Shown here: piece after piece, positions 1 through 27,935 of the stretch
Numbering within the stretch: the first letter of the stretch is position 1
How the letters are laid out: each line of letters opens with the position of its first letter
Assembly (NCBI RefSeq): GCF_008641065.1
Contig: NZ_VTRS01000002.1
Location: 1 to 64,000, forward strand
Direction: 5' to 3'
Length of the DNA stretch: 64,000 bases
Source: Rhabdaerophilum calidifontis
GTDB lineage: Bacteria; Pseudomonadota; Alphaproteobacteria; Rhizobiales; Beijerinckiaceae
The notes under the pieces: model-generated
Told to the model about the DNA's origin: nothing
What the model saw: only the letters and a program-made list of their open reading frames with translations
Databases searched by the model: none
Position numbers and translations under genes: made by a program

Positions 1-1
1 G

Positions 2-61
2 GCTCCGCCGCCGCAGGCCGCGCCGCGCCCGGCCCCGCCGCCGCAGGCCGCGCCGCGCCCG
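2..61. repeat. Two 30-bp tandem repeats coding for APPPQAAPRP
   Basis: Two adjacent 30-bp units (2-31 and 32-61) differ at one base. Each codes for the same ten-residue Pro/Ala block, so the repeat is in phase with the partial gene. It may continue to the left of the window. Confidence 0.85.
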
Positions 62-18903: not shown

Positions 18904-20973
18904 TCATTGCAGCCGGACCGTCACCCGGTCGCTCTGCCCGGCCGCGTCGATCACCGCGATCTGCGTGAAGCCGGCGCCGTCCGGCGTCAGGGCCAATTCG
19001 CGCCGGCTGATCCGCCCGGAAACCGGCACGCCGTTGACGAGATAGGTAAAGGGCGGCGCGCCGCCATGGATCTTCACCACCAGCCAGGGCCGGCCCTCGG
19101 CCTCGCTGGCGCCCAGGTCGATTGCCGCGCCGTCGGGCGGGAAGGCGATCTGCAGCCCCGGCCGCTGCAGCGCCGCCGCGTTCTTGGGCAGATCCTGCCG
19201 GATATGCCGGAGCGGGGGCGGCAATTCGGCATGGCGAGCGACGAGCGCCTCGGGCGGCCGCGGGGCGATCCCCGGCTCGCTGCCGATCCGCGCGAAGGCA
19301 TCGAACAGGATCGGCGCCGCGACGCGCCGGCCGATCAGCCCCGGGACCGCGCCGTTATCCGCCTGCCCGACCCAGATCCCGATCGTGTGTCGGCGGTCGA
19401 ACCCGATCGCCCAGGCATCGCGATAGCCGTAGGAGGTGCCGGTCTTGAAGGCGATGCGGCCCGGCGCGCCGTTCTCCGGGGGCGGCGCGCCGAGCAGGAT
19501 ATCCGCGACATACCAGGCCGGAACGCGGCCGACGAGGCGGCGCGCCGGTTCCGTCCGACCGGGACTCGTGGCAAGCGGCACCGCCTCGCCGCCGCGCGCG
19601 AGCCCGGCATAGAGCGCGACGAGATCGGCAAGCGTGATGCCCAGGCCGCCGAGGCCGATCGCGAGCCCCGGCTGCGATTGCTCGGGAACGGCGATCGTCG
19701 CGCCGGATTCGCGCAGCCGCGTCAGGAATTTCTGCGGTCCGAGCGCCGAGAGCAGCTCCACCGCCGGCAGGTTCAGCGACATCTGGAGCGCGGTGCGCGC
19801 GCTGGCCATGCCATGGAACGTATCGTCGAAATTCTCCGGCGCATACCCGCCGAACCGATGCGGCCGGTCCTCCAGCATCGTCTCGGGATGGGCGATGCCG
19901 TTCTCGAAGGCGAGCGCATAGATGAAGGGTTTCAGCGCCGAGCCGGGCGAGCGGATCGCCTCGGTGAGATCGATTCCGCCCCGGCGATGCTGGGAGAAGT
20001 AATCCGCGCCGCCGATCGCGGCGCGGATCTGCCCGGTTGCGTGCTCGACGACGATGATCGCGACCGAGAGCGCCGGCCCCAGCGCCTCTGCGCGCTCGCG
20101 GGCGAGCCGTTCGAGCGCGCTCTGCCAGTCGCGGTCGAGCGTTGTGACGATCCGTCGCGCGGCCGGGTCGGCCATGGCGAGCCGCTCGGCGCGATGCGCG
20201 GCGAGATGCGGGAAGGGGCGTCGCGCCGCCGGAACCGGCTCCGCCGCGGCGCGGGCCAGTTCCGCCTCGGGCAGGGCGTGGAAGGCGCGCATCCTGTCAA
20301 GCACGCGCTGCCGCGCCGCGGCCGCGCGGTCCGGTGCCCGGTCCGGCCGCCGCGCCTCCGGGGCCTGGGGGATCGCTACCAGCAGCGCCGCTTCGGCGGT
20401 CGAGAGCCGCGCCGGCTCCTTGCCGAAATAAGCGAGGCTCGCCGCCCGCGTCCCTTCGAGATTGCCGCCCATCGGCGCGAGCGAGAGATAGAGGTCGAGG
20501 ATGCCGGTCTTGCCGAGCCGCCGTTCGAGTTCGCGCGCCCGCGCCATCTGCCGCAGCTTGGCGGGCAGGCTGCGGTCGGCGCGCGGCTCGGCGAGGCGCG
20601 CGGCCTGCATCGACAGCGTCGAACCGCCCGAAACCACCCGGCCGTGCCGGAGCATCTGCCAGCCGGCGCGCAGGAGCGCCGCGGGGTCGATGCCGGGATG
20701 GGCGTGGAACCGCCGATCCTCGAAGGCGATCAGCATGTCGAGATAGCGCGGATCGACCTCCGCTGCGCGCACCGGCATGCGCCAGCGCCCGTCCGCCATC
20801 ACGAAGGGGCGCAGCAGCTGGCCCTTGCGGTCGAGCACCACGGTCGAGCGTTCGGCCAGCGCGCCGAGATCGAGCGGCGACAGCAGCCGGGACCAGGCTT
20901 CGAGCGCGAGCACCGGCAGCGCCGCGAGCGCCGCCGCGAGGCCGAGCCCGCGCGCGAGCCGCCGCCCGATCAT
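18904..20973 (-). CDS. pbpC: Penicillin-binding protein 1C
   Basis: A 689-residue bifunctional peptidoglycan synthase. A short N-terminal membrane anchor (about 8-25) precedes the glycosyltransferase domain with FEDRRFHAHPGID (E85 catalytic) and GGSTLSMQAARL at 116-127. The transpeptidase domain has SALK at 345-348, SLN at 399-401 and KTGTS at 510-514, so all three active-site motifs are intact. The C-terminal part (about 600-689) matches the PBP1C-specific C-terminal domain. Its start overlaps the stop of the alpha-2-macroglobulin gene by 4 bp, the usual pairing for these two genes. PBP1C may work with the macroglobulin as a repair and defence unit in the periplasm. Confidence 0.95.
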   Translation of the reverse strand: MIGRRLARGLGLAAALAALPVLALEAWSRLLSPLDLGALAERSTVVLDRKGQLLRPFVMADGRWRMPVRAAEVDPRYLDMLIAFEDRRFHAHPGIDPAALLRAGWQMLRHGRVVSGGSTLSMQAARLAEPRADRSLPAKLRQMARARELERRLGKTGILDLYLSLAPMGGNLEGTRAASLAYFGKEPARLSTAEAALLVAIPQAPEARRPDRAPDRAAAARQRVLDRMRAFHALPEAELARAAAEPVPAARRPFPHLAAHRAERLAMADPAARRIVTTLDRDWQSALERLARERAEALGPALSVAIIVVEHATGQIRAAIGGADYFSQHRRGGIDLTEAIRSPGSALKPFIYALAFENGIAHPETMLEDRPHRFGGYAPENFDDTFHGMASARTALQMSLNLPAVELLSALGPQKFLTRLRESGATIAVPEQSQPGLAIGLGGLGITLADLVALYAGLARGGEAVPLATSPGRTEPARRLVGRVPAWYVADILLGAPPPENGAPGRIAFKTGTSYGYRDAWAIGFDRRHTIGIWVGQADNGAVPGLIGRRVAAPILFDAFARIGSEPGIAPRPPEALVARHAELPPPLRHIRQDLPKNAAALQRPGLQIAFPPDGAAIDLGASEAEGRPWLVVKIHGGAPPFTYLVNGVPVSGRISRRELALTPDGAGFTQIAVIDAAGQSDRVTVRLQ

Positions 20974-23900: not shown

Positions 23901-26297
23901 GGCGAAGCGCGCCGTGCCGCCCTCGCCGATCTCGCCCTCCGCGAAGAGCGGCTTCACCCCGATCACCACCCCCTTCGGCAGGATCGGCAGGACGAGCGCG
24001 CGGTTGACGGCGCGGCCGCCGGTTTCGGCGGCGGAAAGGATGAACTCCGCCTCCAGCGGCAGGGTCGTCGCCGGTTCGCTGAGGGGAATGGAGAGCAGCG
24101 CCTTGCCCTTCTCGTCGGTCTCCGCGGCCTCGATCTCGGCCTTGACCGGCTCGACCGGCTCGTCCGAGAGCCCGATCGTGTAGCCGTCGAGACCGGGGAT
24201 CGCGCTGCGCGCCGCGCGCCGCACCGTCACCTCGCCGGTGATGGCGAGTTCGGCACCCGGCGCGCCGTAGAGATAGCGCACCTCGGCGTCGATCTCGGCA
24301 TTGGCGCCGGAGCGGATCGCCGGCGCTTTAGGTTTCAGGGTCAGTTCGAGCCTCTCGGGGACGTAATCCTCGACGAGAAAGCTCGCCTCGCCGATCGCCG
24401 GCCGCTTCGGATCGGAGAAGGCCGCAACCCGCCAGGTGCCCACCGGCGCCGAGGCGACGAGCGGCACCGAGAGCGCCCGCCCGCCCGCGCCCTGGTCCTG
24501 CACCACCTGCCGGCGGTATTCCATGCCGTCCGGCCGCTTGACGACCAGCGTCAGCGGCAGGCCCGAGACGGCGACGCCCTTCGCATCGCGCAGCAGGGTT
24601 GTCAGATGCACGGTTTCGCCGGGGCGGTAGACGCCGCGTTCGGCATAGACATAGGCATCGAGCCCCTTCGGCGCGATCCGTCCGGAAACGCCGCGATCGG
24701 TAAGGTCGAACGCGCTCTGCTGGAGATCGAGGAAGCCGTAATCGTCCTTGCGCTGCGCGGTGACGAGCCCCGGCGCCATCCCGCCCTCGCCGCGCGCGAG
24801 TCCGGCATCGAATTTCGCATGGCCCTTGGCATCGGTCCGGACGGTGCCGAGCACCTCATTGTTGCGGGCGAGGAGCCGGATCTCGGCATCGGCCACCGGC
24901 GCCGCATCCGCCAGCGACCGGACGAGGACATGCACCCCGTCCTGCCCCGAGAACGCGGTGAGCCCGAGATCAGAGACCGTGAACCATTGCGTGGCGAGCC
25001 CGGCCGTGTCGCCGTCCTCCGGTTCGCCGTCGCTGGGGGCGGCCTTCGCCGTGAAATCGCCGGCCTGCGCCGCGATCAGGTAGAGTCCCGGCTCCAGCTT
25101 GCCCGTCGCCTCCGTCACGGGGAAGGCGGTCACGACATCCTTGTTGAGTTCGCTCTTGACCTCCATCACCCCCTGCCAGACCTGCTGGCCGGATTGGCTG
25201 ACGATCTCGGCCACCTGGTCGGGGCGCATCTGGCCGAGGAAATCCGGCCCGCGCACGGCGTTGATCAGGTTGCGGTCGCCGATCCTGAGCACGCGGATGC
25301 CGATCCTGTCGGTATTGACCGAGACCAGCGGCACGCCCTGCTGGCCGGTGCGCGGCAGCACATAGGTGCGGCCCGAGGCGCGCACGGAGGGTGAGCGGTC
25401 ACGGACATAGATCTCGTAATCCGCGTTTTTCAGCAGCGATTCGCCGGGAATCGCCGAGGGAATCCCCTGCCGGAGGACGATGGCGTAGCGCTCGCCATGG
25501 CGCAGCCCGTCGACGCAGATCTGCGCATCCTCGGCGGTGACGCCGAAATCGCCCTTGCCGGATACCGCGACATAGGGCGCGAAATCGACCCGGCCCCGCG
25601 CCAGCGCCTCGGAGAAGCGGAAACAGGCCCGCGGCGAGGCGGAATCGGCATCGACCTCGAACCCGGTGAGACGGAAGCCGCGCTTCTCGCGCAAGGCCTC
25701 GTAGGCGGCGCGCAGCGTCTGGTCCTCGCGCGCCTCGAGGCCGATCCGGTAGGCGGTCAGCGCCGGGCGCCACATCTCCCGCCATTCGAAGATCTGCGCG
25801 AGCAGGCCGAGCGATTGCCCTTCCTCGTCGCGGCTGCGCGCCCGCTGATAGGCGAGATAGGCGGCGGCCACCGCGCGCTCCTGCATGTCGTAGCGCTCGC
25901 GCCAGTCGCGGGGCACGATGCCGCGCGCGGCCCGTGCCATCAGCCGCCAGGCGGCGCCGTTCTGCGGCGCCGCGATCACGGCCTGGTTGGCGAGCGGCAG
26001 CGCCGCCCGCGCGTCGTTGCGCGCCAGCGCCGCCTCGCCGGCGGCGACCAGCCGGCCGATCTCGGCACCCTGCGGCAGCGTCACCTCGCGCTTGAGCCGA
26101 TCCTCGATCTGCGCGCCGGACAGCGCGAGATCATCGCGCTGGAACGGTTTCTGCGGGCTCTGCGCCACCGCGCCCCCGGCCATGAGGGCGAGCGCGGCGG
26201 CAAGCACGAACGCCGGACCGCGCCCGCGCCGCCCTGCCGGCCCCGGATAAGCGGATGCACCGGAACCGATCGAGAAAAGCCCGAAAAGGCCGCGCAT
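20970..26297 (-). CDS. Bacterial alpha-2-macroglobulin (YfhM-like, thioester-bearing)
   Basis: A 1775-residue periplasmic protein. A signal sequence with a long charged n-region ends at AVAQ (about residue 46) and shows no lipobox, unlike E. coli YfhM. It has the series of MG domains and the bait-region stretch. The thioester motif GCTEQ is intact, with C1318 and Q1321, inside YPYGCTEQTVSRAM. C-terminal receptor-like domains follow. Family role: trapping of attacking proteases by covalent capture. The start at 26297 follows GGGAGG. It is first in an operon with pbpC. The divergent neighbour is an inactive trypsin-like protein. Confidence 0.95.
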   Translation of the reverse strand: MRGLFGLFSIGSGASAYPGPAGRRGRGPAFVLAAALALMAGGAVAQSPQKPFQRDDLALSGAQIEDRLKREVTLPQGAEIGRLVAAGEAALARNDARAALPLANQAVIAAPQNGAAWRLMARAARGIVPRDWRERYDMQERAVAAAYLAYQRARSRDEEGQSLGLLAQIFEWREMWRPALTAYRIGLEAREDQTLRAAYEALREKRGFRLTGFEVDADSASPRACFRFSEALARGRVDFAPYVAVSGKGDFGVTAEDAQICVDGLRHGERYAIVLRQGIPSAIPGESLLKNADYEIYVRDRSPSVRASGRTYVLPRTGQQGVPLVSVNTDRIGIRVLRIGDRNLINAVRGPDFLGQMRPDQVAEIVSQSGQQVWQGVMEVKSELNKDVVTAFPVTEATGKLEPGLYLIAAQAGDFTAKAAPSDGEPEDGDTAGLATQWFTVSDLGLTAFSGQDGVHVLVRSLADAAPVADAEIRLLARNNEVLGTVRTDAKGHAKFDAGLARGEGGMAPGLVTAQRKDDYGFLDLQQSAFDLTDRGVSGRIAPKGLDAYVYAERGVYRPGETVHLTTLLRDAKGVAVSGLPLTLVVKRPDGMEYRRQVVQDQGAGGRALSVPLVASAPVGTWRVAAFSDPKRPAIGEASFLVEDYVPERLELTLKPKAPAIRSGANAEIDAEVRYLYGAPGAELAITGEVTVRRAARSAIPGLDGYTIGLSDEPVEPVKAEIEAAETDEKGKALLSIPLSEPATTLPLEAEFILSAAETGGRAVNRALVLPILPKGVVIGVKPLFAEGEIGEGGTARFAVIMATGEGKRVARAGVKWQLSRISRNYQWFFKDGRWAYEAIKTSRRVADGEIATSETAPAEIAARVGWGSYRLELRSQDSETAHDFTIGYVAEAKADTPDVLDVALDKPAYAEGETMQVRLAPRFAGKATLAVISDRVVHLETVDLPEGGRTVPLKVGADWGAGAYLVALAHRPLDVAAKRMPGRALGLAWFGIGREARRVALDLGAPAQIRPRGTLDLDVKLANLAPGEEAFVTVAAVDIGILNLTRYAAPDATRHFFGQRQLSGDLRDLYGYLIDGMQGARGAIRSGGDAAPEAKGERPTQEPLARYSGVVKVGADGKARISFDIPAFNGAVRVMGVAWTKDKTGEASADVVIRDPIVVQATAPRFLALGDRARFHVEINNVEGASGDYALDLDMKGPVSVALDPELRRLRLEKGRKAQVTLPVTATGLGMAELALTLRGGGETLAQTLRIAVKSSAPSTVNRIVRPLPPGQSLAVSNDLVADFVPNSGAVAVTVSPFAALDVPALLAALDRYPYGCTEQTVSRAMPLLYVNRLASMEHLALDDAAETRIATAIERVLARQGANGGFGLWGIGGGDLWLDAFVADFLTRARERNIPVPQVAFQLALDRLRNQVVNTSDVRAEEASGLAYAIYVLARNGRPVMGDLRYLADNKLGDFASPLAKAQLGAALALLGDRARAETAYNAAQNTLAAGRDEDVFRPDYGSKLRDSAGILALFAETNAAPARIQRVAAILDEMRGRARYTSTQEQTWMVMAAQALAKEAENFRVTIDGQEHRGAFYRNLPQAALDRKPLTIRNDGPADARVILSVSGIPTAPEPALDEGYSVTRTIHSLTGEIVAPDALRQNERYVVVLEVGSARPRGARLLVVDPLPAGLEIENPRLTETSADAFAFLGEVTPAEHTEARDDRFVAAFERSGQEKKPVRIGYLVRAVTPGRYVHPAALAEDMYRPERFGRTAFGTLDIAPAAPAGAAPRR

Positions 26298-26501
26298 GAT
26301 GCATCCTCCCTCTTTCCGTGCCGGAAGCGACACCCTAACACCCCCCGGGCGCACCGCAATGTGCGCCGCCGCACGGAATTCCGCGCCCGATCCTGTTGCC
26401 TCGCTGCGCCCGCGCATGCGAGCGTCGCGCGGCGGTCATCAAACATGCCGACGATGACGCTGTGACGGCAGAAGGGCGGATCACGCGGGGAGGGCGGAAC
26501 C

Positions 26502-27935
26502 ATGCGGCTCGGAAATACGCAGCTCGAGACCCTGCGGCGTGGGATCACGCAATTCCTGGCGCCGATCGCGGCGCCCGCGGCCTATGCGCTGCTCGGCGGC
26601 GCGCTGCTCGCCGGCGCGCCGCCCGCCGCGGCCCAGGGCGCACCGCCCGCGCCCGCCGCGACGCGCCCGGCCGATCCGCTCTTCGCGGCGGCGGAGAAGG
26701 CGTTCCTCGCGCTCGATATCGAGGCGCGCCGCGCGATCCAGCGCGATCTTGTCTGGGCCGGCGGCTTCTCCGGTTCCGCGACCGGCGATTTCGGACCGCT
26801 GACCTTTGCCGCGCTGAAGCGCTTCGAGGCCGAGGCGAAGCTGAAGGCGGACGGCATCCTCGCCCCGCCGGAGCGTGCCGCGCTCCAGAAGGCAGCCGAC
26901 CAGGCGCGCGCGGCCCTGCGGTTCAAAATCGTGAGCGACCCGGCCTCCGGCATCCGGCTGGGCCTGCCGCAGATCGTGTTCACGAAATCCGCGCCGAACG
27001 GTTCCGGCGGCACCCGTTTCCAGGACCGGGACGAGAAGGTCACGCTGGAGACCATAATCTACCGGCCGGAGGACACGCTGCCGGACCTGTTCGCGAAGGG
27101 GGTCGCCGATCGTCCCGGCCGCCGGATCACCTACAAACTGCTCAGGCCGGATTTCTTCGTCATTTCCGGCGAGACGGCCGGGGGCAAGTTCTATCGGCGC
27201 GTCGACAGCGACGGCAAGGCGATGCGCGGGCTGTCCATCGGCTACGACAAGGCGCTCGCGCCGGCCTTCGACCGCATGGTGATCGCCATCGCCGCGAGCT
27301 TCGAGCCCTTCCCCAAGGCCGGCGGCGCGCGGCCGGCCCCCGCGCCGGGCCCGGCTCCGGTGGCTGCCGTGACGCGCCAGCGCCGCGCGACCGGGCTCGT
27401 GATCGCGCCGGAGACGATCGTTACCGCCGAGGCGGCGCTCAAGGGCTGCGCCGAGATCGTCGCCCTCGGGCCGAAGGGCGAGCGCATCCCGGCCCGGATC
27501 GCGCGGGGCGCGGGGCCCGGCCTCGTGCTGCTGGCCGCGAAGGCCGGCGCGCCGCTCAAGGCCGGGCTCGCGCCGCCGCAGCCCGGCGCCGCGACGCTGC
27601 TCCAGCGCGAGGCCGACGGCGCGCTCGCCGCGAGCGCGGCGATTCTCGCCGAGGGCAGGGCGGAAGCTTCGCTCCAGGACGGCGGCGCCGGCGCGCCGCT
27701 CTTCGACCGCGAGGGCCGCCTCGTCGCGGTGATCGCCGCCGAGCCGGTGACGAAATACCGGGTCGCCGGCATCGTGCCGGCGCAGTTTTACGCCTTCGTC
27801 CCGGCGCCGGATATCGCCGCGGCCGCCGGGCTCGCGCCGGCCGGCGCCTCCGCCCCGGCGCCGCTTTCCGGCGCCGCGATCGCCGAGGCGGCGCGCGCCT
27901 CCCTCGTCGGGCTGCTCTGCGCCTCGGACCGCTGA
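26502..27935 (+). CDS. Secreted trypsin-fold pseudoprotease with a peptidoglycan-binding-like domain
   Basis: A 477-residue protein with a long signal region (1-45, PPAAAQ). Residues 60-125 resemble a peptidoglycan-binding helical domain (ARRAIQRDLVWAGGFSGSATGDFGPLTFAAL...DGIL). A middle domain (140-270) is unassigned. A trypsin/HtrA-like fold spans 290-435. In it the expected triad is gone: VTNAHV-type His becomes A311 in VTAEAAL, DLALL-type Asp becomes G340 in GLVLL, and GNSGGPLF-type Ser becomes A396 in GGAGAPLF. It therefore looks like a pseudoenzyme. It is divergent from the alpha-2-macroglobulin gene. The ATG follows GGGGAGGGCGG. The alignment to trypsin folds is by eye. Confidence 0.75.
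   Translation: MRLGNTQLETLRRGITQFLAPIAAPAAYALLGGALLAGAPPAAAQGAPPAPAATRPADPLFAAAEKAFLALDIEARRAIQRDLVWAGGFSGSATGDFGPLTFAALKRFEAEAKLKADGILAPPERAALQKAADQARAALRFKIVSDPASGIRLGLPQIVFTKSAPNGSGGTRFQDRDEKVTLETIIYRPEDTLPDLFAKGVADRPGRRITYKLLRPDFFVISGETAGGKFYRRVDSDGKAMRGLSIGYDKALAPAFDRMVIAIAASFEPFPKAGGARPAPAPGPAPVAAVTRQRRATGLVIAPETIVTAEAALKGCAEIVALGPKGERIPARIARGAGPGLVLLAAKAGAPLKAGLAPPQPGAATLLQREADGALAASAAILAEGRAEASLQDGGAGAPLFDREGRLVAVIAAEPVTKYRVAGIVPAQFYAFVPAPDIAAAAGLAPAGASAPAPLSGAAIAEAARASLVGLLCASDR

Follow-up and report, generated by a model that had tools for sequence, protein, structure and literature searches.

A triad-less trypsin-fold protein as a candidate third component of the type I alpha-2-macroglobulin/PBP1C system

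Introduction

The locus studied here raises the question of why a secreted protein with the fold of a trypsin/HtrA protease, and none of its catalytic residues, should be encoded head to head with an alpha-2-macroglobulin (A2M), i.e. beside a protease trap. It lies in a window of 64,000 nucleotides of Rhabdaerophilum calidifontis (contig NZ_VTRS01000002.1), the whole stretch of DNA that was analysed. Two parts of this setting are already known: the gene of a thioester A2M adjoins that of PBP1C in the type I module (PMC3328433; PMC5764988), and HtrA-fold pseudoproteases such as MamO have been described (PMC4794232). By contrast, our search of the open literature found no description of a macroglobulin-linked bacterial pseudoprotease as a third partner in the type I module.

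Results

Genes of the locus

The pseudoprotease (P0001) is encoded on the opposite strand from an A2M/PBP1C operon. This divergent arrangement, with its spacing of 204 bp, had been described by an earlier sequence-only reading of the locus and is borne out by the start codons (Table 1). The A2M has the MG, BRD and TED domains of type I together with a thioester motif (CxEQ, here GCTEQ), and inspection of its N-terminus reveals a signal peptide followed by no lipobox cysteine. A scan of the 204-bp intergenic region for promoters and terminators gave no match, sigma-70-type promoters included. On the minus strand, the ORFs of the A2M (from 20970) and pbpC (to 20973) share a few bases, as expected for a single transcript.

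Table 1. Coordinates of the genes, domains and key codons at the locus, numbered along the window
Feature	P0001 residues	Position	Strand	Basis
P0001, secreted pseudoprotease, 477 aa		26502..27935	+	ORF, Pfam, structure model, fold search
A2M, type I bacterial alpha-2-macroglobulin, 1775 aa		20973..26297	-	bMG3/5/6/10, MG2, BRD and TED domains
PBP1C (pbpC)		18904..20973	-	TIGR02073 equivalog, 684.8 bits (cut-off 494.2)
Divergent intergenic region between A2M and P0001 start codons, 204 bp		26298..26501	.	Start codons 26297 and 26502
Putative signal peptide	~1-45			By-eye reading
PG_binding_1 domain	74-120	26721..26861	+	PF01471, E 1.2e-8, 35.5 bits (cut-off 23)
PsbP-like domain	~139-270	26916..27311	+	Fold match, conservation
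Trypsin/HtrA-like domain without triad	~292-444	27375..27833	+	Pfam Trypsin_2, fold matches, motif table
Catalytic His position, codon	A311	27432..27434	+	Alignment; H in 16/16 triad-intact homologues
Invariant cysteine, codon	C316	27447..27449	+	Invariant cysteine
Catalytic Ser position, codon	A396	27687..27689	+	Alignment; S in 16/16 triad-intact homologues
Invariant cysteine, codon	C473	27918-27920	+	Invariant cysteine, plausible partner of C316

Domain architecture and fold of P0001

From its N-terminus, P0001 consists of a signal peptide, a peptidoglycan-binding domain, a PsbP-like domain, a Pro/Ala linker, a trypsin/HtrA-like domain and a C-terminal helix and strand. The peptidoglycan-binding-like domain noticed in the sequence-only reading is recognised by Pfam as PG_binding_1, and Trypsin_2 (PF13365) is found at residues 296-410 (E 4e-7, above the Pfam cut-off). 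A C-terminal PDZ domain, as in HtrA, is absent by Pfam, and the structural model shows the helix and strand in its place. A search of the PDB with the P0001 sequence returned weak matches only, chiefly to peptidoglycan-binding domains.

The structural model, built from 36 related sequences, has a mean pLDDT of 91.3 and a pTM of 0.57, so the relative placement of the domains is uncertain; a single-sequence prediction (pLDDT 37) was set aside. Comparison of the predicted structure using VIA-align relates the C-terminal domain to DegS, MucD, DegP and MamO (Z about 14-15), in agreement with the trypsin/HtrA-like fold that had been read from the sequence. Two further features had escaped that reading, namely the PsbP-like middle domain and an invariant pair of cysteines. 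For the former, residues 85-219 of the model match PsbP (2vu4 and 2xb3) with a Z of 14.1 (VIA-align) at 10-12% identity, a resemblance of fold only, and Pfam gives no match to the PsbP family in P0001. As for the cysteines, C316 and C473 occur in every sequence compared, i.e. 48 members of the P0001 clade (defined below) and 16 active homologues, and they plausibly form a disulfide that has been retained in both dead and active forms.

The catalytic triad is lost throughout a single clade

Within the trypsin-like domain, the histidine of the TNAHVV motif lines up without gaps with A311 and the serine of GNSGG with A396, while the Asp position falls on G338 or G340, a 2-residue ambiguity of the alignment that yields a glycine in both cases. 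The substitutions named by the sequence-only reading (A311, G340 and A396) thus hold, with G338 as the alternative Asp site. We also checked the chain for an intact triad elsewhere and found none: the trypsin-like region proved to contain zero histidines.

Against the family profile, scores above 300 bits identify a single clade, and those below about 280 bits belong to other homologues. In a tree built without the motif columns, one branch (support 98) separates the clade from the rest, and another (support 94) does so for the triad-intact proteins. Among 50 aligned clade members, the catalytic His is found in none and more than one triad residue in none; the catalytic positions hold mostly small residues (A/S, G and A/G). 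None of the active homologues with a triad adjoins an A2M in the loci fetched.

Degenerate relatives are also present in two other families. Specifically, homologues of the same architecture in family f36 (L062, L134, L136-L138, L140 and L141) have Leu or Gln in place of the His, and keep the Ser (GFSG) and in some cases also the Asp. In family f50, a degenerate group (L128-L132) has lost the His and the GNSGG block, and further partial homologues lie close by in three of the loci. Neither group adjoins an A2M, so the loss of the triad alone implies no A2M partner.

The pseudoprotease gene is linked to A2M and pbpC

The A2M-linked clade was found in two families, that of the window (f1) and f28, and in a class-level sample searched at E up to 1e-40 we found none outside its order. 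A survey of gene neighbourhoods, as proposed by the sequence-only reading, reveals co-occurrence with the A2M/pbpC pair: the pseudoprotease gene adjoins A2M in 46 of the 52 clade genomes, these 46 representing 21 genera and both families. The two genes lie on opposite strands in all 45 measurable A2M-linked loci, where the extrapolated distance between their starts has a median of 138 bp (the gap is 1.6 kb in G042). Of 45 linked loci, 44 contain pbpC, and the remaining one lies on a short contig. As for the six unlinked genomes, the pseudoprotease is about 9 kb from A2M in G128 and G163 and elsewhere in G056 and G273, and contig ends prevent placing the gene in G053 and G375.

General synteny was rejected as the cause of this linkage. 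Among 14 ORFs of the window used as a control, only P0001, A2M and PBP1C persist nearby outside the window's genus (21 genera in all), and the 11 other neighbouring ORFs are confined to that genus, e.g. putative gph, DUF2059, gor and aroG, names that are readings of the ORFs.

Every genome with the pseudoprotease clade also has A2M. Within the window's family, the two occur together in 29 genomes and A2M occurs alone in 15; both are absent from 16, and the clade never occurs without A2M. In other words, the clade is found in 29 of 44 A2M-positive genomes vs 0 of 16 A2M-negative ones (Fisher p 2.5e-6, a value inflated by shared ancestry). Contig ends may account for some of the 15 A2M-positive genomes without the pseudoprotease. 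By eye, no consistent replacement gene occupies the divergent slot of A2M loci that lack it. Within the window's own genus, one genome (G004, 99% complete) is devoid of A2M, of a linked pseudoprotease and of any PBP1C over the cut-off; this genome retains a triad-intact homologue (L066).

Absence of a lipobox in the linked A2Ms

A motif scan and inspection found no convincing A2M lipobox across the 45 clade loci. The raw scan flagged 4 of 45 loci with the pseudoprotease and 2 of 40 without it, mostly upstream of the likely start. The idea that the pseudoprotease is found only where A2M has lost its lipobox gained no support, as A2Ms are without a convincing lipobox regardless of whether the pseudoprotease is present. 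Nor is a lipobox, as seen in Escherichia coli ECAM, a universal feature of type I A2Ms. Since lipobox-less A2Ms occur without it, the pseudoprotease is not needed by every soluble A2M.

Selection and conservation across domains

In eleven close pairs, dN/dS of the trypsin-like domain ranges from 0.06 to 0.33, so this degenerate domain is under purifying selection. These values contradict the view that the protein is a relic or a pseudogene, despite one broken frame; i.e. in G006 (L047, 8830-10330) the gene is split across two frames, through either gene loss or sequencing error.

Conservation differs among the three domains. Mean pairwise identity within the clade is 43% for the PG-binding domain, 42% for the PsbP-like domain and 34% for the trypsin-like domain, and this order is reversed in the triad-intact homologues (29%, 28% and 48%, respectively). 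Constraint has shifted in the clade toward the PG-binding and PsbP-like domains, and the protein is still kept. We also compared evolutionary distances using a co-variation test that is weak and confounded by the tree. Here, the N-terminal half follows A2M once PBP1C distances are removed (partial r 0.49, 0/500 permutations). The trypsin-like half shows no such relation with A2M (-0.06), but does track PBP1C once A2M distances are removed (partial r 0.52).

Discussion

Given that its gene has stayed adjacent to A2M in at least 21 genera, the dead protease probably works together with the A2M, and a functional linkage between the two is very likely. The sequence-only reading had suggested such a link, with the pseudoprotease as decoy, regulator or anchor. 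The link itself has gained from the fold, the loss of the triad and the trio kept in 21 genera, while among the three roles that of decoy has lost ground. The PG-binding and PsbP-like domains are the conserved parts of the protein, a pattern better suited to an anchor or scaffold than to a decoy.

We propose that P0001 is a catalytically dead and probably repurposed member of a periplasmic family of PG-binding/PsbP-like/trypsin-fold proteins, and that it would form a three-gene envelope-defence module with the type I A2M and PBP1C. The N-terminal domain would bind peptidoglycan and the remainder of the chain would contact the A2M; this could keep a soluble, non-lipidated A2M in place or stable at the cell wall, the site of damage repair by PBP1C. 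We see an even chance that the protein is a third component of the type I A2M/PBP1C system, i.e. a peptidoglycan-anchored pseudoprotease that docks or gates A2M at the wall. That it holds or stabilises the non-lipidated A2M at the wall near PBP1C is the best explanation we can offer, and one that we hold with slightly less than even confidence. Several results weigh against it: soluble A2Ms and 15 A2M-positive genomes of the family that do without the pseudoprotease, four clade genomes in which its gene has moved away from A2M, degenerate relatives unlinked to A2M, and a trypsin-like half that tracks PBP1C instead of A2M.

A precedent for such a role is found in the mag operon of Pseudomonas aeruginosa, where MagB determines the location and stability of MagD, a type II A2M (PMC5764988); by analogy, the pseudoprotease could keep A2M in place or stable at the wall, close to PBP1C. 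The likeness lies in a partner gene beside the A2M gene. MagB, however, is predicted to have a transmembrane helix, and the type II A2M that it serves is devoid of a thioester, whereas the window's A2M is of type I and has one; as far as the source was read, it reports neither a protease fold nor a peptidoglycan-binding domain for MagB, whereas both are predicted in P0001.

Two other roles are less likely, but are serious rivals. The first is that of a regulator or lock, in which the protease-like domain would bind A2M, control the exposure of its bait or the reactivity of its thioester and release it upon contact with a foreign protease. The linkage is indeed strict to a thioester-bearing A2M, the protease fold is kept under purifying selection, and the small residues that refill the catalytic positions mean that a peptide groove could survive, but the trypsin-like domain diverges fastest of the three and, once PBP1C is accounted for, shows no co-variation with A2M. 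Equally probable is a partner of PBP1C or of peptidoglycan synthesis, which would bind peptidoglycan, tune PBP1C and adjoin A2M only through the shared A2M-pbpC operon. Although the PG_binding_1 domain, the near-constant presence of pbpC and the way in which the trypsin-like half follows PBP1C all suit this role, the gene faces away from A2M, which comes first in the operon, and does not adjoin pbpC, and it is with A2M that the N-terminal half co-varies more.

Shared regulation alone, i.e. a periplasmic stress protein expressed from a shared divergent promoter region and making no physical contact, seems improbable: the trio persists across genera while other neighbours disappear, and the clade is missing wherever A2M is missing, even if divergent genes with a short spacer suit co-regulation. 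The least supported and least probable reading is a decoy or cargo-protease mimic for A2M. A protease fold does adjoin a protease trap, but bait cleavage triggers A2M and a dead protease is unable to cleave, and a decoy should keep the recognised protease surface, yet of the three domains it is the protease-like one that is conserved least.

An anchored, non-cutting partner of A2M would also set this locus apart from known systems. In Escherichia coli, a CxEQ thioester A2M (YfhM/ECAM) is likewise encoded beside pbpC, but the module as described has two genes and its A2M bears a lipobox (PMC3328433), whereas here a lipobox-less A2M is accompanied by a conserved third gene, the pseudoprotease. 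MamO of magnetotactic bacteria shares the trypsin/HtrA fold with a degenerate active site and is a close structural match (5hma and 5hm9). However, MamO binds metals via surface histidines and activates MamE (PMC4794232), and its surface di-histidine site has no equivalent in the histidine-free trypsin-like region of P0001, whose context is that of A2M and PBP1C. The triad-intact PG-binding/PsbP-like/Trypsin_2 proteins from the same taxonomic order (e.g. L066 and L069) share the architecture and the cysteine pair, but they keep His, Asp and Ser and are found away from A2M in the loci fetched.

A conserved partner that resembles the prey of A2M but is unable to cut would provide a handle on the periplasmic role of type I A2Ms and on their retention near PBP1C. 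In evolutionary terms, it would be an example of a protease scaffold that gave up catalysis and came to be linked with a trap for proteases; active relatives are available for comparison.

Other A2Ms differ at their N-terminus. We saw no PAN/Apple-like domain in the A2Ms of loci carrying the pseudoprotease, while the A2M of L184 (G415) begins with one (Pfam PAN_4, E 2e-8), and similar N-terminal segments were seen by eye in L162, L166, L167, L169, L170, L172, L173, L175 and L180. It is possible that this domain is an alternative anchor for A2M in other families.
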